From Arcanobacterium urinimassiliense (GTDB taxonomy: Bacteria > Actinomycetota > Actinomycetes > Actinomycetales > Actinomycetaceae), in NCBI RefSeq assembly GCF_900119495.1, contig NZ_LT632435.1, forward strand, positions 606,112-666,114: 60,003 nt of DNA, read 5' to 3'. Of the stretch, positions 54,531-60,003 are shown piece by piece. Below the pieces are notes generated by a model. That model did not search any database. It was not told the DNA's origin and saw only the letters and a list, made by a program, of their open reading frames with translations. The translations under genes were made by a program, and so were the position numbers. The first letter of the stretch is position 1; every line of letters begins with the position of its first letter.

Positions 54531-54556
54531 ATTTAGATGCGCAAAATCGTCTAAAT
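54531..54556 (+). promoter_or_regulatory. Inverted repeat upstream of the transketolase operon, operator-like
   Basis: ATTTAGA (54531-54537) and TCTAAAT (54550-54556) form a perfect 7-bp inverted repeat with a 12-base spacer. It lies upstream of TATTAT (54575-54580), a possible -10 box, and of the ribosome site GAGGAGG at 54594. It looks like a binding site for a dimeric regulator or a small hairpin. Confidence 0.45.
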
Positions 54557-54608
54557 ACTCGAAACTCAGGGTACTATTATTCTTAAGCTCAACGAGGAGG
54601 CGACCTAA

Positions 54609-55358
54609 ATGGATAATGCAACATTAAGTCGAGTCAATCTAAATGGCGTATTTAAAGCGCTAGAAAAATTGGTTGAACTTGACGATAAAGCTGCAGCTCT
54701 CATCGCAAATGCCGATGAGGTCATTCAGTTTACCAGTCCGAAGGTAACGATTCGGCTGGCTATTAAGCACGGGACCATTACGCATCACCGCGGTGCAGGT
54801 CCAAACACTATGAACCTAGCGTTCCCCACCCCTAAGATGGTGAACAAAATGTTCGACGGCACCGGTATGCCGATTCCGGTTAAAGGAATTACCAAGATTA
54901 AGTTCTTGACCGGAACCTTTACCGAACTGACCAATATTCTTACTGATTATTTGCGCCCCACTCCGGAAGCTCTCAAGGATGAGAATTTCCGGCGCATCAA
55001 TACGATTCTGACGCTCTGTGTAGTGGCCAATTCTGCTAGCGAAATAGCTAATAGCGATGAGAAGGGTCAGCAGAGTGCGCAAGGAATGCGGGACGGCGAT
55101 TTGCAACTGGCAGTAATAGATGGTCCGGCCTATATTCTCCGCATTAAGGATCACAAGCTCACCACCATTGAAGGAGTTACGAATACCCCGAGCTCTCGCA
55201 TGATTTTCTCCAGCTTGGATGTGGTTGGTGGAGTACTGCGGGGAGAGATTGCTGCTTTCTCTGCCATCGGTTCGCAGGATATCCGCATTAGCGGTTACGT
55301 CCCGAATCTGGATAACTTTAATCGGCTTCTCGGTCTGGTATCTCAGTACCTCAGTTAG
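54609..55358 (+). CDS. Protein with tandem SCP2-like modules, first carrier of the operon
   Basis: This 249-residue soluble protein looks like two SCP2-like (sterol-carrier, lipid-binding) halves. The N-half has IRLAIKHGTITHHRG and MNLAFPTPKMVNKMF with PIPVKGITKIKFLTG; the C-half has LQLAVIDGPAYILRIKDHKL, MIFSSLDVVGGVLRGEIAAF and GSQDIRISGYVPNLDNFNRL. Such folds carry hydrophobic molecules, but the assignment is by eye. There is no signal peptide or membrane helix. It opens a six-gene operon, with GAGGAGG nine bases before ATG, and ends six bases before the aminotransferase gene. The partner at 58531 has the same double layout. Confidence 0.55.
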   Translation: MDNATLSRVNLNGVFKALEKLVELDDKAAALIANADEVIQFTSPKVTIRLAIKHGTITHHRGAGPNTMNLAFPTPKMVNKMFDGTGMPIPVKGITKIKFLTGTFTELTNILTDYLRPTPEALKDENFRRINTILTLCVVANSASEIANSDEKGQQSAQGMRDGDLQLAVIDGPAYILRIKDHKLTTIEGVTNTPSSRMIFSSLDVVGGVLRGEIAAFSAIGSQDIRISGYVPNLDNFNRLLGLVSQYLS

Positions 55359-55364
55359 GAAAAG

Positions 55365-56651
55365 ATGATGGAAACATACAAATACCCCAAGAGTCAAGAA
55401 CTATTTCAGAAGAGTGCCAAGGTAGTACCGAGCGGTATTTACGGCCACCTCGGACCAGGCGAAGGCTGCTTCATGCCTATCGACGCTTATCCGCTTTATG
55501 CTGAGAAAGCTAAGGGATCCTATTTCTGGGATATTGACGGCAATAAGTTCATTGACTACATGTGCGCTTATGGTCCGAATGTCCTCGGCTACAACGATCC
55601 CGATGTGGATAACGCCTTCAAAGAGCAGTTGAAGAAGGGTAACTGCATTTCTCTTGCTTCGGCGCGTCTGCCTGAACTGGCAGAATTGCTGGTAGATACG
55701 ATTGATTCAGCTGATTGGGCCTTCTTCGCGAAGAACGGTGGCGACGTAACTGCCATGGCCGCTCTGACGGCTAAGGCAGCGACCGGCCGGAGCAAGATGC
55801 TGATGTTGCACGGTGGCTACCACGGTGTAGCTCCTTGGATGCAGCAGATTGATTACTCTGGTATCGCCAAGGAAGACGTAGCCAACAATCTCTATGCAGA
55901 TTTCGGCAACTTCTCCCAGATTAAGCGGATTGTCTACGAAAACAAGGGTCAGATTGCTGGCTTGATTTCGACTCCGTATCACCATCCTGCTTTGGCAGAT
56001 AATATGCTGCCGCCGGAAGGCTACTGGCAGAAGGTACGCGATCTGTGTACGCAGGAAGGAATTGTACTAATCGTAGACGACGTACGCTGCGGATTCCGTT
56101 TGGATGTACACGGCTCTGATCATCGCTATGGCTTCAACGCTGATCTGCTCACCTACTGTAAGGCACTGGCCAATGGCTACAATATCTCCGCTCTCGTAGG
56201 GCGCGAATCCCTGCAGGATGCCGCAGCTTCGGTATTCTACACTGGTTCCTACTGGCTCTCCGCGGCTCCGATGGCTGCCGCGATTGCTTGTATCACCAAG
56301 ATGCGGGAGATGGATCTAGCGAAGGTCTGCTTGGAGAAAGGCAAGAAGATCACGGATGGCCTCGTAGAGGTAGCTGCTAACAACGGCTTCCATCTCAAGG
56401 TGACTGGTGAGCCTTCGATGTGGTTCATGCGCACCACCGGCTATGAGGATATTGAAGATCCGAATAATATGCTGCATCAAGCATTTATCGGCGAGTGCGT
56501 ACGGCGCGGAGTGTTCTTGGCCAACCACCACAACCTCTTCATCAATGCCTCTTTGACTGATAAAGACATTGAGCAGACCTTAGAAGTCGCTGATGAAGCT
56601 TACCGCGTAATTCGCAAGGACGTTAAGAATATTCTCGGAAAGGGATTTTAA
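55365..56651 (+). CDS. Class III aminotransferase, glutamate-1-semialdehyde-aminotransferase-like
   Basis: This 428-residue PLP enzyme has fold-type I class III features: MLHGGYHGVAPWMQQIDYSG, the Asp that pairs with the PLP ring in LIVDDVRCGFRLD, and the PLP lysine in LLTYCKALANGYNISALVG. The start of the domain, PSGIYGHLGPGEG, and the ends resemble glutamate-1-semialdehyde aminomutase relatives. These enzymes move an amino group onto a carbonyl compound or sugar. Here it lies between an SCP2-like carrier and split transketolase, so the substrate is probably not glutamate-1-semialdehyde. ATG 55368 is an alternative start. It ends directly at the next ATG. Confidence 0.88.
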   Translation: MMETYKYPKSQELFQKSAKVVPSGIYGHLGPGEGCFMPIDAYPLYAEKAKGSYFWDIDGNKFIDYMCAYGPNVLGYNDPDVDNAFKEQLKKGNCISLASARLPELAELLVDTIDSADWAFFAKNGGDVTAMAALTAKAATGRSKMLMLHGGYHGVAPWMQQIDYSGIAKEDVANNLYADFGNFSQIKRIVYENKGQIAGLISTPYHHPALADNMLPPEGYWQKVRDLCTQEGIVLIVDDVRCGFRLDVHGSDHRYGFNADLLTYCKALANGYNISALVGRESLQDAAASVFYTGSYWLSAAPMAAAIACITKMREMDLAKVCLEKGKKITDGLVEVAANNGFHLKVTGEPSMWFMRTTGYEDIEDPNNMLHQAFIGECVRRGVFLANHHNLFINASLTDKDIEQTLEVADEAYRVIRKDVKNILGKGF

Positions 56652-57515
56652 ATGAGTATCGATCCGAATACCTGGCGGCGTCTCGAAGATAAAGCTCACG
56701 AACTTCGAGGACTCACCCTAGATACCGTCTATTGGGCTGGCGGCGGGCACGTGGGCGGCTCGCTTTCCGCACTCGATGTGCTGACCGTACTTTACTACGA
56801 TGTAATGAACTTCAGCGCCGATAAGCTCGACGATCCTGATCGTGATCGCTTCGTGCTTTCCAAAGGGCATATTGGTGTAGGTTATGCACCACTGCTAGCC
56901 GATTTGGGCTGCTTCCCCAAGGATTGGTTGAAGCGCTTCAATAAGACTGGTTCCCCCTTGGGCATTCACCCAGACGGTTCGAAAGTACCGGGCGTAGAAA
57001 TCGCGACCGGCTCTCTCGGGCACGGCCTTTCGATTGCTGCTGGCATGGCAAATGCTTCGCGGCTTTCCGGGCGTAACTTCGACGTCTACTGCATGATGGG
57101 CGACGGCGAATGCGATGAGGGCTCTGTATGGGAGGCAGCTATGGCTGCTTCACACTTCAAGCTCGATCGCCTTATCGGCATTGTCGACCGCAACAAGGCC
57201 ATGATTGACGGCATGACGGAAGACGTCATGAACCTGGAGCCTTTTGCAGATAAGTGGCGTGCCTTCGGTTGGGAAGTATTTGACATCGACGGATCTTCGA
57301 TTCCGGAGATTTACGATGCTATTTATGCGGCCCGCGAAGTAAAGGGCAAGCCGGCCATGATTATTGCCAATACGGTGAAAGGCGCTGGAATCGATAGTAT
57401 CGCCGGCGACTACAAGTGGCATTACGGCTCGTTCAGCGAAGACCAGGTCAAAGATGGGCATGAATCCCTCGAGCGCTACCATGCACAGCGCGTAGCAAAG
57501 ATTAAGGAGAGCTAA
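56652..57515 (+). CDS. Transketolase N-terminal (TPP-binding) subunit
   Basis: This 287-residue protein is the N-terminal third of transketolase encoded separately. It has the TPP region WAGGGHVGGSLSALDVLTVL, KGHIGVGYAPLLA, GSLGHGLSIAAGMANASR and the cofactor motif MMGDGECDEGSVWEAAMAA with GIVDRNKAMIDGM. It transfers two-carbon ketol units between sugars when combined with the C-terminal subunit encoded just downstream. The ATG follows the aminotransferase TAA directly. Split transketolase is common in bacteria and archaea; in this operon it may serve a special pathway rather than the main pentose phosphate cycle. Confidence 0.93.
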   Translation: MSIDPNTWRRLEDKAHELRGLTLDTVYWAGGGHVGGSLSALDVLTVLYYDVMNFSADKLDDPDRDRFVLSKGHIGVGYAPLLADLGCFPKDWLKRFNKTGSPLGIHPDGSKVPGVEIATGSLGHGLSIAAGMANASRLSGRNFDVYCMMGDGECDEGSVWEAAMAASHFKLDRLIGIVDRNKAMIDGMTEDVMNLEPFADKWRAFGWEVFDIDGSSIPEIYDAIYAAREVKGKPAMIIANTVKGAGIDSIAGDYKWHYGSFSEDQVKDGHESLERYHAQRVAKIKES

Positions 57516-57517
57516 AG

Positions 57518-58528
57518 ATGGCTGGAGGATTAACTTATACAATGCTTGACGCCGGCGATATGGCTACCGCTGAGGTATATGGCCGCACGCTGGTGGAGCT
57601 GGCTGGGGAGCATCCGGATATTGTCGGTTTCTCCGGCGATTTGGCAAAATCCACGAAGATTGGTCTGTTGGCAGATGCCTACCCGGATCGTTTCTTCAAC
57701 GTAGGTATTGCTGAGCAGAATATGTTTGGTATGGCTGCTGGTATGGCGAAGTGCGGATACACCCCCTTCGTCTCCACCTTCGCCGCATTCGCAACTATGC
57801 GTGCCTTGGAGCAGCTGCGTACCGATATTTGCTACGGCAATGCAAATGTAAAAGTAATTGCTACGCACTCCGGTCTTTCTTTCGGCAATGCTGGTTCTAC
57901 CCATCAGAGCCCTGAAGATATCGCGATTCTGCGTTCCATTACTAACCTGGTCACCCTCTGCCCGGCAGACGGCCGTTCGACGGTGCAGGCAGTACTAGCT
58001 GCCTATGAGCATCAAGGTCCGGTCTATGTGCGTGTAAACCGTGGCTATGACCAGAATGTATACACTGAAGAGATTCCGAACTATCGCATTGGTGGTTCTC
58101 ACACAGTGCGCGAAGGCTCCGATTTGACGATTATGGCCACCGGCTCGGCAGTATGGCGGGCTATTCAGGCGGCAGATATGCTCAATAAGGAAGACGGCCT
58201 TTCCGTACGGGTAATCGACCTCTATTCGATTAAGCCTCTCGACGAAGAAGCTATTAAGAATGCAGTGGCCGAAACCCGCCGTGTAATTACGGTAGAAGAT
58301 GCCAATATTGCCCACGGCCTCGGCTCGGCAGTCGCCGATGTTGCAGCCAGCACGGGCAAGGGCTTCGCCTTCCGTAAGCTCGGTGTTCCGGATACCTGGT
58401 CGATGATTGGCCAGCCGGAGGATCTCTACGCTCACTATGGTTATGATGAGAACGGTATCGTCGAATCCGCTCGGGAGCTGATGCGCATCGAGATTGAAGA
58501 GGACGACGACTGGGATGATGAGGTATAA
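57518..58528 (+). CDS. Transketolase C-terminal (pyrimidine-binding) subunit
   Basis: This 336-residue protein carries the middle and C-terminal transketolase domains. The catalytic Glu is in FFNVGIAEQNMFGMAAGMA, with YTPFVSTFAAFATMRALEQL, THSGLSFGNAGSTHQS and DLTIMATGSAVWRAIQAA following. It pairs with the N-subunit encoded two bases upstream to make an active TPP enzyme. The end EIEEDDDWDDEV is unusually acidic and extends beyond the usual domain. The next gene starts two bases after the stop. Confidence 0.92.
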   Translation: MAGGLTYTMLDAGDMATAEVYGRTLVELAGEHPDIVGFSGDLAKSTKIGLLADAYPDRFFNVGIAEQNMFGMAAGMAKCGYTPFVSTFAAFATMRALEQLRTDICYGNANVKVIATHSGLSFGNAGSTHQSPEDIAILRSITNLVTLCPADGRSTVQAVLAAYEHQGPVYVRVNRGYDQNVYTEEIPNYRIGGSHTVREGSDLTIMATGSAVWRAIQAADMLNKEDGLSVRVIDLYSIKPLDEEAIKNAVAETRRVITVEDANIAHGLGSAVADVAASTGKGFAFRKLGVPDTWSMIGQPEDLYAHYGYDENGIVESARELMRIEIEEDDDWDDEV

Positions 58529-58530
58529 GA

Positions 58531-59376
58531 ATGAGCGATATACCTCTCGAGCAAGAAGTAAAGTACCAGACCCTCGTTTTCCTAAACGCGGTGGTGCCGA
58601 CCTTAAAGCCGATAATCAATAACGTTCCGGCGCTGACGAAGGCTTTTAAGGGTCTGAACGGCGTGGTGCAGATTTCTGCATTAACCGGCGAAAAAGATGA
58701 ATTCGGCGCTCCCGAGAAGGTAGCTACGCGGCTGGAGGTGAACGACGGAGAAGTCTCTATTCGCACCGGTGTGCATCCGGCGCCGAATGTGGAGCTACAA
58801 TTCGCATCGCGCGAAGCTCTAAACGGATTTTTCCTCGGCACCATCAATCTGCAGACGCTGCCGAAGATGAAGGGAGTACTCTCTAATGTCCGGCTTTTCG
58901 TAGCCGCCTTGCGGTCGCTGCTCTACATGGCAGATCTGCTCGGCCAGACGGAAGCTCCCGAAGATCCCGATAAGGCAGCTCTGCTCACCAGATGCATGTT
59001 CTACCTGCTCACTAGTGGAATATCTCAGCTTAATAAAGCTAAGCATCCACTCTTTAGTGAATGGGCAAAGAACCAGCCTGATCGCGTCTACGAACTCTGC
59101 GTAATTGGCCATGAAGAACTTAATGCGTATATTCGTGTTAAGGGCGGGCGCACTAAGGCAGTAAGAGGGCCTTATACACGCTCTAAGCCATTCTTCGCTC
59201 TCGCATTCGACTCGGTACCGAGCGCCTTAGGCACTCTGCAGGGTACCGATGACATGATCGACGCTACTATTGCGCAAAGAATTATTATGCAAGGAGCTCC
59301 GGAGTATGGAGCTGATTTGGGGGCTATGATGCTCGCAGTCGGCGACTATGCTCAGAAGCCAGTTGGAGGTGCCTAA
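58531..59376 (+). CDS. Second SCP2-like protein of the operon
   Basis: This 281-residue soluble protein resembles the one encoded at 54609. The N-half has GVVQISALTGEKDEF, TRLEVNDGEVSIRTGVHPA and NVELQFASREALNGFFLGTI; the C-half has YELCVIGHEELNAYIRVKGG, FALAFDSVPSALGTLQG and IIMQGAPEYGADLGAMMLAV, the strand and helix pattern of two SCP2-like modules. Between them is a hydrophobic helical stretch (VRLFVAALRSLLYMADLLG). It is probably a carrier for a hydrophobic intermediate. The overall identity with the first protein is low, so it is a diverged copy or a partner subunit. The VOC gene starts one base after the stop. Confidence 0.5.
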   Translation: MSDIPLEQEVKYQTLVFLNAVVPTLKPIINNVPALTKAFKGLNGVVQISALTGEKDEFGAPEKVATRLEVNDGEVSIRTGVHPAPNVELQFASREALNGFFLGTINLQTLPKMKGVLSNVRLFVAALRSLLYMADLLGQTEAPEDPDKAALLTRCMFYLLTSGISQLNKAKHPLFSEWAKNQPDRVYELCVIGHEELNAYIRVKGGRTKAVRGPYTRSKPFFALAFDSVPSALGTLQGTDDMIDATIAQRIIMQGAPEYGADLGAMMLAVGDYAQKPVGGA

Positions 59377-59377
59377 A

Positions 59378-59932
59378 ATGGGAATTCTCGATCCAGTAAA
59401 GAAGCTGTTCTGCGGTCCGCGCGTCCATGGGGTTACCCATGCGGGAGTGACTGTAAGCAATTTTGAAGAAGCCATCAAATGGTATAGCTATATGTTTGAT
59501 TGGCATCTGCTCAATGAGCTTACTGTAGAGCCGGAGAAAGCTAATACGCTGGTAGATCTCTACGGAGAAGAAGGGCTGACGATTCGGCTGGGCTTCCTAG
59601 GTACGCAGAGCACAAATGTACTAGAGATATTTGAGTTCTCGCCTAAGGCAGAGCCAGCACCGAAGACGGTCTGGAATCGCCCCGGCTATACGCATATCGC
59701 TATTAGCGTGAGCAATGTGCCGGCATTAAAGAAGAAGCTAGAAGAGAAAGGCGCGGAGTTCGTTTCGGACGTGCAGTTTATGGGCGGTGCCCACTGGGCG
59801 TTTATGCGTGACCCCGATGGCAATCTCATCGAGCTGATTGATTATCACGCAAACCGGATACCGATTGCCTTGGCCTCTAATCTGGTCGGGAAATTGCTGA
59901 AGAAGCTGCAATTCGGGTCCTACTATATCTAA
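59378..59932 (+). CDS. VOC-superfamily (glyoxalase/dioxygenase fold) enzyme
   Basis: This 184-residue protein has two babab modules with the metal ligands of the vicinal-oxygen-chelate family: His in GVTHAGVTV, Glu in NVLEIFEF, His in YTHIAISV and Glu in GNLIELIDY. Such enzymes work as epimerases, glyoxalases, dioxygenases or resistance proteins, always on a metal-bound vicinal oxygen substrate. ATG 59378 starts after GGAGGTGCC, one base past the previous stop. The last 25 residues (ALASNLVGKLLKKLQFGSYY) are an added amphipathic helix. It is probably the last gene of the operon. Confidence 0.85.
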   Translation: MGILDPVKKLFCGPRVHGVTHAGVTVSNFEEAIKWYSYMFDWHLLNELTVEPEKANTLVDLYGEEGLTIRLGFLGTQSTNVLEIFEFSPKAEPAPKTVWNRPGYTHIAISVSNVPALKKKLEEKGAEFVSDVQFMGGAHWAFMRDPDGNLIELIDYHANRIPIALASNLVGKLLKKLQFGSYYI

Positions 59933-59983
59933 AAAATAATTTCTGCCGCAGAGCAGAGATTTATAGATAGCATTGAGGCGGGG

Positions 59984-60003
59984 GCTGAGCTTAGTTGCTC
60001 AGC
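59984..60003 (+). terminator. Probable terminator of the operon, cut by the window edge
   Basis: GCTGAGC at 59984-59990 pairs with GCTCAGC at 59997-60003 around a six-base loop. It lies 51 bases after the VOC stop, and the stem may extend beyond the window because GGGG precedes it. Confidence 0.6.

Follow-up and report, generated by a model that had tools for sequence, protein, structure and literature searches.

A conserved six-gene operon of Arcanobacterium urinimassiliense with a predicted transaminase/split-transketolase route for sphingoid bases

Sphingolipids are lipids common in animal cells. The described route for breaking their backbone, through sphingosine kinase and S1P lyase, uses a phosphorylated base and a retro-aldol-like cleavage between C2 and C3 that frees a long-chain aldehyde and phosphoethanolamine (excerpted part of PMC6148460). 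The target of FumI-type aminotransferases is the amino group at C2 of hydrolysed fumonisin (PMC9858248, passages on these enzymes), a sphinganine analogue; FumI itself comes from a fumonisin degradation system. A transketolase encoded by split genes and made of two chains has been described from Carboxydothermus hydrogenoformans (PDB 6yak; extract of PMC7661550). In the 60,003-nucleotide stretch of Arcanobacterium urinimassiliense DNA analysed here (the window), relatives of the last two enzymes lie in one operon of six ORFs, p1 to p6, at 54609–59932 on the + strand. Their intergenic gaps are 0–6 bases, so that the gene calls bear out the tight packing described in an earlier reading made from the letters alone (the sequence-only reading). 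A ribosome binding site, GAGGAGG, precedes p1 (54594..54600, + strand), and a 7-bp perfect stem with a 6-base loop lies at 59984..60003 (+ strand), where the bases further downstream were masked and a terminator scan made no call.

Searching with p1, we collected 42 loci from Actinomycetota (12), Spirochaetota (22) and Bacillota (8), counting once each the contigs that appear both as L029–L035 and L040 and as L017–L024; the 22 spirochaete neighbourhoods were read from 37 p1-bearing genomes, some with partial or weak matches. p1 and p2 are adjacent in 42/42 loci and a transketolase follows p2 in 34, leaving eight p1–p2 loci without one. The order p1–p5 is kept in 32/42 loci and p1–p6 in 21/42, p6 being absent from 11 of the 32. 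The six-gene unit is real and mobile, with a gene order conserved across three phyla, which answers the question of conserved linkage raised by the sequence-only reading. That reading had also known of no described pathway with this gene set, and the open literature that we searched yielded no description of the operon or of its pathway. A virus-borne cassette was considered and set aside, no p1 relative being confirmed among the viral contigs searched.

The second gene, p2 (55365..56651, + strand; PF00202), encodes a class III aminotransferase that we describe as FumI-like and as a predicted long-chain-base transaminase. Its closest solved relative is FumI of Sphingopyxis (PDB 6hbs/6hbv; 267 bits for 6hbs, aligned over p2 residues 10–421) rather than glutamate-semialdehyde aminotransferase (GSAM, 152 bits) or the GABA or ornithine transaminases, and the two class III enzymes have in common motifs around IDYMCAYGPN and TGS-W-SA-PMAAAI. 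FumI is also the best solved relative of p2 from the distant Clostridia locus L042 (335 vs 175 bits). Lys266 and Asp238, which we take from family knowledge to be the PLP lysine and the pyridine-binding aspartate, are invariant in 42/42 loci. Judging from these resemblances, p2 is predicted to deaminate a long-chain 2-amino-3-hydroxy compound, much as FumI removes the C2 amine from a sphingoid-like chain, but in a setting where it follows p1 and mostly precedes a transketolase instead of belonging to fumonisin degradation. Two other identities were rejected on NCBIfam cut-offs: a GSAM/heme (HemL) role, for which TIGR00713 gave 199 bits against the 527 required of an equivalog, and guanitoxin GntE, which was the top model yet reached 221 of 525 bits.

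The next two genes encode a split transketolase, p3 (56652..57515, + strand; PF00456) being the ThDP (PP) chain and p4 (57518..58528, + strand; PF02779 and PF02780) the Pyr + C chain, with an altered substrate pocket. All Pfam transketolase domains score above their cut-offs, the catalytic residues (E. coli numbering) H26, H66, H100, H261, Asn185, E411 and H473 are retained in 13/13 aligned proteins, and S385, H461 and R520 are kept as well. The C. hydrogenoformans enzyme is the best solved relative of both chains and keeps the same catalytic residues; it carries ATREAYG and GEDG motifs, which hold the equivalents of Arg358 and Asp469, whereas in the operon Asp469 is replaced by Ala in 33/33 p4 chains, and Arg358 gives way to Ala in 30 chains, Gly in two and Ser in one. 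These 33 chains include four from Bacillota (Ala469 in 4/4, Gly358 in two); p4 of L088 ends before position 469. Since the substrate-funnel pair by which we recognised canonical EC 2.2.1.1 enzymes is missing throughout, we class p3/p4 as a transketolase-superfamily enzyme and not as a pentose-phosphate enzyme. D469 is among the positions changed when E. coli transketolase was evolved towards non-polar aldehydes (PMC5073344, in the part available). Loss of D469 is not specific to the operon: among 22 non-operon rows, one of which (L156) did not align, the split paralogues L147–L151 have a gap, Gly or Asn at this position, L148, L149 and L151 keeping Arg358 with Gly or Asn at 469 and L147 and L150 having neither residue. 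Both residues are present in L137, L138 and L158, and most of the remaining rows look like DXS or E1-type paralogues, mostly with Asp469.

The predicted structure of p1 (54609..55358, + strand; 249 aa) has the SCP2 fold, and p5 (58531..59376, + strand) is its homologue by hhalign (E 4.5e-15 over 240 columns). The fold is that of SCP2, UbiJ and the SCP2-like C-terminal domains of alkylsulfatases, but the window's p1 and p5 differ from these in that no model of Pfam or NCBIfam matches either of them and in that they apparently contain two modules. The curated cut-off of PF02036 is passed by p1 of two of the nine p1-bearing genomes searched. An internal repeat was weak in p1 (hhalign probability 15) and none was found in p5; because, across different homologues, PF02036 matches occur in either half of the protein, and in view of the structure model, p1 is probably a two-module protein, and two modules each seem to make up p1 and p5. 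Both would bind a lipid ligand as carriers. The sequence-only reading is supported as to the SCP2-like carriers, the hydrophobic intermediate that it associated with them and its idea of an amino transfer combined with a two-carbon transfer.

The last gene, p6 (59378..59932, + strand; PF00903, 53.4 bits), encodes a VOC-superfamily protein that is accessory, being present in 21/42 loci. His21, Glu83, His106 and Glu152, presumably metal ligands to judge from the family, are invariant in 21/21 proteins. Neither glyoxalase I (44.8 of 120 bits) nor methylmalonyl-CoA epimerase (27.1 of 114.95 bits) reached its NCBIfam equivalog cut-off.

We give an even chance to the explanation that the operon encodes a transaminase/transketolase route which splits a sphingoid base to yield a fatty aldehyde and a C2 fragment, independently of S1P lyase. 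The substrate and direction that we infer are as follows. p2 would shift the C2 amino group of sphinganine or sphingosine onto a keto acid; this may be pyruvate, which a FumI relative is reported to use. The product would be a 1,3-dihydroxyalkan-2-one, whose HOCH2-CO-CHOH- head is of the kind recognised by transketolases. p3/p4 would then break the C2–C3 bond: the long-chain aldehyde would be set free, and an aldose (or aldose phosphate) would accept the two-carbon ketol unit and so bring it into sugar metabolism. The insoluble base, ketone and aldehyde would be held by p1 and p5. Natural sphingoid bases are 3R and canonical transketolase donors 3S, for which reason p6 may have its place in the pathway in enediolate chemistry on the alpha-hydroxyketone, e.g. 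C3 epimerisation. Like the S1P lyase route, this one would free a long-chain aldehyde by a break between C2 and C3, but by predicted transamination followed by ThDP-dependent ketol transfer and with no ATP step. If correct, it would be a second route of sphingoid-backbone cleavage, chemically unlike S1P lyase, for which neither an ATP step nor an oxygen step is foreseen. It would also provide a natural lipid-handling transketolase, an explanation of host sphingolipid use by host-associated and anaerobic bacteria, a genome marker of sphingoid-base turnover in p1–p2 and enzymes with which to make 2-amino-1,3-diols by the transketolase/transaminase scheme.

Host ceramide, cut by ceramidase, would be the source of the bases in Arcanobacterium. 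The window's genome has two near-full-length neutral ceramidase matches (PF04734), and full-length ceramidase, defined among relatives as PF04734 with E<1e-100, occurs in 6/6 operon-bearing and 0/4 operon-free Arcanobacterium genomes. Among 99 relatives, seven have operon and ceramidase, three the operon only, one ceramidase only and 88 neither (p=6e-8 by Fisher tests, which, here and below, ignore the relatedness of genomes). The association gives p=0.009 when counted by genus and p=1.2e-5 when the weaker matches of five genomes, excluded above, are included. No full-length ceramidase was found in the operon-bearing relatives G058 (Mobiluncus curtisii), G080 and G086 or in the operon-bearing genomes G488, G490, G491 and G493. 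In Spirochaetota, 11/37 p1-bearing genomes have any ceramidase match compared with 37/355 others (p=0.002), 9/37 and 27/355 at E<1e-30 (p=0.003), 4/37 and 21/355 at E<1e-90 (p=0.20), and 2/37 and 19/355 at the E<1e-100 used for the relatives (p=0.6); the link there is threshold-dependent, vanishes at the strict cut and is not general outside Arcanobacterium. The S1P-lyase superfamily (PF00282) is absent from 10/10 Arcanobacterium genomes and from M. curtisii G058, with a match in one genome, G029, and a search of the window's genome for an SPT-like gene gave no match. Since this genome has neither an SPT-like nor an S1P-lyase match, yet two ceramidases, cleavage is the more likely direction there. 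One of its ceramidases lies near a second split transketolase (L027), with duplicated LysR/MFS genes between; the two were not counted as linked.

The direction is less clear-cut at L042, where p1–p2 are preceded by an SDR, a fusion of AMP-ligase, ACP and oxoamine synthase, and another SDR. The top NCBIfam model for the first SDR is 3-ketodihydrosphingosine reductase (KdsR-like). SPT is among the high-scoring relatives of the fusion, whose NCBIfam models are bioF first (344 bits) and SPT third (297 bits), and no model reached its cut-off. A similar fusion lies elsewhere in the operon-bearing genome G808. This SPT/KdsR-like neighbourhood, found at 1/42 loci, suggests synthesis as much as breakdown. 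The operon might run in reverse, with a fatty aldehyde receiving the two-carbon ketol unit of a ketose phosphate and p2 aminating the resulting 1,3-dihydroxy-2-ketone to a 2-amino-1,3-diol; sphingoid bases would then be made with no need of serine palmitoyltransferase. We think this unlikely, although both enzyme reactions are reversible, the window's genome has no SPT-like match and the L042 cluster looks anabolic. In biocatalysis, 2-amino-1,3-diols are made by known transketolase/omega-transaminase cascades, which follow the same reaction logic in the synthesis direction but are man-made and use small substrates. The two ceramidases of the window's genome and the ceramidase association in relatives favour breakdown, five operon-bearing Spirochaetota (G800, G525, G628, G500 and G615, operon-bearing genomes alone being searched) also have SPT-like matches of about 500 bits, a finding that weighs against the cleavage reading too, and no fatty-aldehyde-forming reductase was seen by eye among the neighbour families present in at least three of 33 loci. 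There is likewise a small chance that the pathway is reversible in nature, some hosts making sphingoid bases from fatty aldehyde and a ketose-derived two-carbon unit; in that case, SPT-based searches would have missed bacteria that make sphingolipids.

Hydrolysed fumonisin is a 1-deoxy-type analogue, and the substrate could be some other long-chain 2-amine or alpha-hydroxyketone, such as a 1-deoxy-sphingoid base, a toxin analogous to sphinganine (fumonisin, for example) or a CAI-1-like signal, handled for detoxification or signalling. The known FumI substrate is hydrolysed fumonisin itself, the p1–p2-only loci (8/42) would fit a pair that simply deaminates its substrate or makes a signal, and CAI-1 autoinducer synthase is among the weaker matches of the L042 oxoamine synthase (89 bits). 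We nevertheless rate this as distinctly unlikely: canonical ketol transfer by the transketolase of the full operon depends on a hydroxyl at C1, as in a normal base, ceramidase co-occurs with the operon in relatives, and host-associated Arcanobacterium and Mobiluncus would hardly encounter fumonisin.

The sequence-only reading had offered lipid-linked amino-polyol production as one hypothesis. For a product of this, the amino-sugar or the aminocyclitol kind speak a split transketolase beside a class III aminotransferase and two lipid-carrier-like proteins, together with a glycosyltransferase-like gene (by eye) just 5' of p1 in the closely related spirochaete loci L090, L093 and L094 and Gfo/Idh/MocA oxidoreductases in the vicinity of the L036 and L038 operons. 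Such neighbours occur in few loci, several neighbour families being confined to three closely related spirochaete loci, whereas the most frequent family is a TetR regulator (9/33 loci, and by eye L169 and L170), followed by alanine dehydrogenase/transhydrogenase-like (4), signalling (4), AMP-ligase (3) and ABC-ATPase (3) families. Moreover, aminoglycoside-type C-6' aminotransferases score 112 bits with p2, against 267 for FumI. We consider amino-polyol production improbable: because of the FumI relationship, the SPT/BioF-like and KdsR-like neighbours at L042 and the ceramidase co-occurrence in relatives, the evidence points to long-chain sphingoid-type bases as the substrate of p2. Finally, the operon might be no more than a further pentose-phosphate transketolase locus that carries unrelated genes along. 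The sequence-only reading, which had set the operon apart from such a locus, would have given way to this view if the pair were the genome's only transketolase and its linkage were not conserved; instead, a full-length transketolase is present elsewhere in the window's genome and the linkage is conserved. Compatible as it is with the Pfam domains and with S385, H461 and R520, a plain locus of this kind is very improbable and already contradicted by conservation, for the p1–p5 order is kept in 32/42 loci and neither D469 nor R358 survives in the p4 chains of the operon family.

The six open reading frames p1–p6 are encoded in tandem on the window's + strand (positions 54609–59932), separated by intergenic gaps of 6, 0, 2, 2 and 1 bases and preceded by a GAGGAGG site. 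Pfam and NCBIfam profiles assign p2 to the class III aminotransferases, p3 and p4 to transketolase, each as one half of a split enzyme, and p6 to the VOC proteins; for p1 and p5, the SCP2-like putative lipid carriers, no model of either collection matched at the thresholds used. ORF and profile checks showed the gene calls of the sequence-only reading to be correct and confirmed the tight six-gene operon that it had observed, the linkage being real. That reading had also asked whether the genome holds another full-length transketolase: one is present elsewhere in the genome (G000; 1.68 Mb, two contigs), as is a second split pair outside the operon. Terminator scans at the 3′ end of the operon gave scores not above those of shuffled sequence, and from just past the window end at 60003 (L026 from 6115) the following bases are masked as N.

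Operon loci were collected with p1 as the probe, which places p1-less loci outside the sample. Of 99 genomes from the genus, family and order, 10 gave a p1 match, the genome of the window among them; p1 was further found in 1/396 genomes drawn from the phylum, that one being the window's own, in 37/392 Spirochaetota, partial or weak matches among them, and in 7/398 Bacillota. Named carriers are Arcanobacterium ihumii, A. pluranimalium, A. bovis, Mobiluncus porci, M. curtisii and Mobilicoccus caccae, and MAG carriers come from Arcanobacterium, Actinomycetaceae, Mobilicoccus, Bifidobacteriaceae, Spirochaetes and Clostridia. At all 42 distinct p1 loci, p2 lies directly 3′ of p1. Genes p1–p5 occur in order at 32 of these (Actinomycetota 11/12, Spirochaetota 18/22, Bacillota 3/8), the contig ends after p4 at two further loci, and eight have p1–p2 alone; p6 comes next at 21 of the 42 and is missing from 11 of the 32 p1–p5 loci. 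A midpoint-rooted tree of concatenated p1–p5 from 29 loci places the Arcanobacterium/Mobiluncus/Mobilicoccus group among spirochaetes, with three spirochaete loci as its sister lineage; the node uniting the two has a support of 1.0. This position fits a putative transfer of the operon from the spirochaete side to host-associated actinobacteria.

Several flanking genes were observed. One locus from another family of the order (L025:10392-12410) lacks the transketolase genes, and its p1–p2 pair is preceded by a TetR-like gene and followed by an MFS transporter gene, both judged by eye. A TetR-family regulator, a candidate lipid sensor, recurs beside the operon (L036, L038, L082, L085, L088, L091, L095, L096, L098 and, by eye, L169 and L170). 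In three Arcanobacterium species (L017, L018, L019), genes for the binding protein, permease and ATPase of an ABC transporter of the sugar type are convergent to the operon; none was seen in the readable flank of the window's operon.

The best solved relative of p2 is the aminopentol aminotransferase FumI (267 bits, followed by GSAM at 152), and FumI again comes first for the distant p2 of a Clostridia MAG locus, L042 (335 vs 175 bits). K266 and D238 are invariant in 42/42 p2 sequences. In passages of PMC9858248, FumI-type transaminases are described as acting on hydrolysed fumonisin at its C2 amino group; of three new ones, one gave 2-keto and 2-acetamido products with pyruvate and the other two only an m/z 448 product. 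Fumonisins are classed as sphinganine analogues in PMC7711896.

In E. coli TktA numbering, 13 operon transketolases keep H26, H66, H100, H261, E411, H473 and N185 and carry Asn or Ser in place of R91. Among 33 p4 chains (the first 13 with 16 spirochaetal and 4 Bacillota chains added), D469 is Ala in every one and R358, which we take to have a phosphate-binding role, is Ala in 30, Gly in two and Ser in one, with S385, H461 and R520 unchanged. Both R358 and D469 are present in the E. coli enzyme, the housekeeping transketolase of G000 and the controls L137, L138 and L158; D469 is also lost from five non-operon split paralogues (Gly, Asn or a gap), including the second pair of G000. Passages of PMC5073344 report how E. 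coli transketolase was evolved to take polar aldehydes in place of phosphorylated ones, and then non-polar ones, both aliphatic and aromatic. The end point was S385Y/D469T/R520Q; the D469–R91 salt bridge had been removed, and S385 is called a phosphate contact there. S385 and R520 are unchanged in the operon enzyme. Since the catalytic residues are kept and D469 and R91 are replaced, the operon enzyme appears to be a competent transketolase in which the pocket lacks the D469–R91 polar pair.

We propose a single scheme linking the FumI-like enzyme, the changed-pocket transketolase, the carriers and a ceramidase. In this scheme, p2 would transaminate a 2-amino-1,3-diol and so produce the head group that transketolase donors carry, a 1,3-dihydroxy-2-ketone, from which p3/p4 would transfer the ketol unit and free a fatty aldehyde; an aldose phosphate as acceptor would suit the kept S385, H461 and R520. 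The VOC superfamily has a record of enediolate chemistry, and because H21, E83, H106 and E152 of p6 are invariant (21/21) at the expected metal-ligand places, p6 would be a candidate for such a step, though it is absent from those 11 p1–p5 loci. We give sphingoid-base cleavage by transamination and ketol transfer about an even chance of being correct, a confidence reduced because in Spirochaetota the ceramidase link changes with the cut chosen and because other split paralogues have lost D469 too.

A neutral-ceramidase gene, its match confirmed by profile search, lies ∼5 kb upstream of p1 at locus L022. With full-length ceramidase set at E<1e-100, the 99 genus, family and order genomes divide into seven with p1 and ceramidase, three with p1 only, one with ceramidase only and 88 with neither (Fisher p=6e-8, ignoring relatedness; p=0.009 when counted by genus). 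Within Arcanobacterium, ceramidase is present in 6/6 genomes with the operon vs 0/4 without (p=0.005, ignoring relatedness), and no protein of PF00282, the superfamily of S1P lyase, was found in any of the 10 genomes. G000 holds two ceramidase copies (L027, L049), each starting with an apparent secretion signal by eye. Outside Arcanobacterium and its relatives the link is weak: six further carrier genomes gave one full match and, in another genome, a weak one, and in Spirochaetota the association varies with the cut, from 11/37 p1 carriers vs 37/355 others for any match (p=0.002) and 9/37 vs 27/355 at E<1e-30 (p=0.003; both ignoring relatedness) to 4/37 vs 21/355 at E<1e-90 (p=0.20) and 2/37 vs 19/355 at E<1e-100 (p=0.6).

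The same route run in reverse would yield sphingoid bases, which we regard as improbable; in the window's genus breakdown is favoured, since ceramidase is present and G000 has no SPT-like match at 1e-10. Such matches do occur in G007, G008 and G009, that of A. ihumii (G008) being a glycine C-acetyltransferase (626 bits vs a cut-off of 460) whose gene adjoins a threonine-dehydrogenase-like gene (by eye). Across 29 genomes, 21 had a match at 1e-10 and none scored above the cut-off of 640. Because SPT-like genes of ∼500 bits occur in five spirochaete genomes, in a spirochaete set made up of operon carriers, the operon could there serve turnover of the cell's own lipids. A sphingoid-type neighbourhood was found at 1/42 p1 loci, L042, where an SDR gene, an AMP-ligase/carrier protein/alpha-oxoamine synthase fusion and a second SDR gene precede p1–p2. 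The best NCBIfam model for the SDR is 3-ketodihydrosphingosine reductase (233 bits of 400 needed). For the synthase domain, the best solved relatives are 8-amino-7-oxononanoate synthase/2-amino-3-ketobutyrate CoA ligase (223 bits) and serine palmitoyltransferase (210), and since the bioF model (344 of 426 bits) outscores that of SPT (297 of 640), both under their cut-offs, the fusion is a candidate sphingoid-base synthase and no proven SPT. An operon-bearing spirochaete (G808) has a similar fusion beside an SDR gene away from the operon, that SDR not being KdsR-like at E<=1e-40. Fusions of ∼1095 aa at L042:4864-8157 and in a spirochaete at L190:2919-6197 (domains seen for the synthase part) each adjoin an SDR gene, an arrangement resembling a self-contained sphingoid-base-synthase-like cassette.

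The component proteins belong to known superfamilies; the gene combination and the predicted pathway are undescribed as far as we searched. In the open PMC literature, subscription papers being mostly outside this scope, we found among the matches listed, judged by title or the opening of the abstract, no description of an SCP2/transketolase/aminotransferase set or of a transaminase–transketolase sphingoid pathway, and no relevant paper on ceramidase in Arcanobacterium. The new aspect would be sphingoid-base metabolism through a different chemistry.

Among the spirochaetes, a sulfatase-like gene (by eye) directly follows p6 at L083:15002-16573, in a genome that also has ceramidases, and at three closely related loci the gene immediately preceding p1 is, by eye, glycosyltransferase-like (L090:7496-8437, L093:10585-11526, L094:3066-4007). 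In G000, a LysR-type regulator and MFS transporter are duplicated in tandem (L027:2773-7042; contig C2, about 1194772-1199041; 2076/2096 bases identical) between a ceramidase gene and the second split transketolase with its SDR gene.
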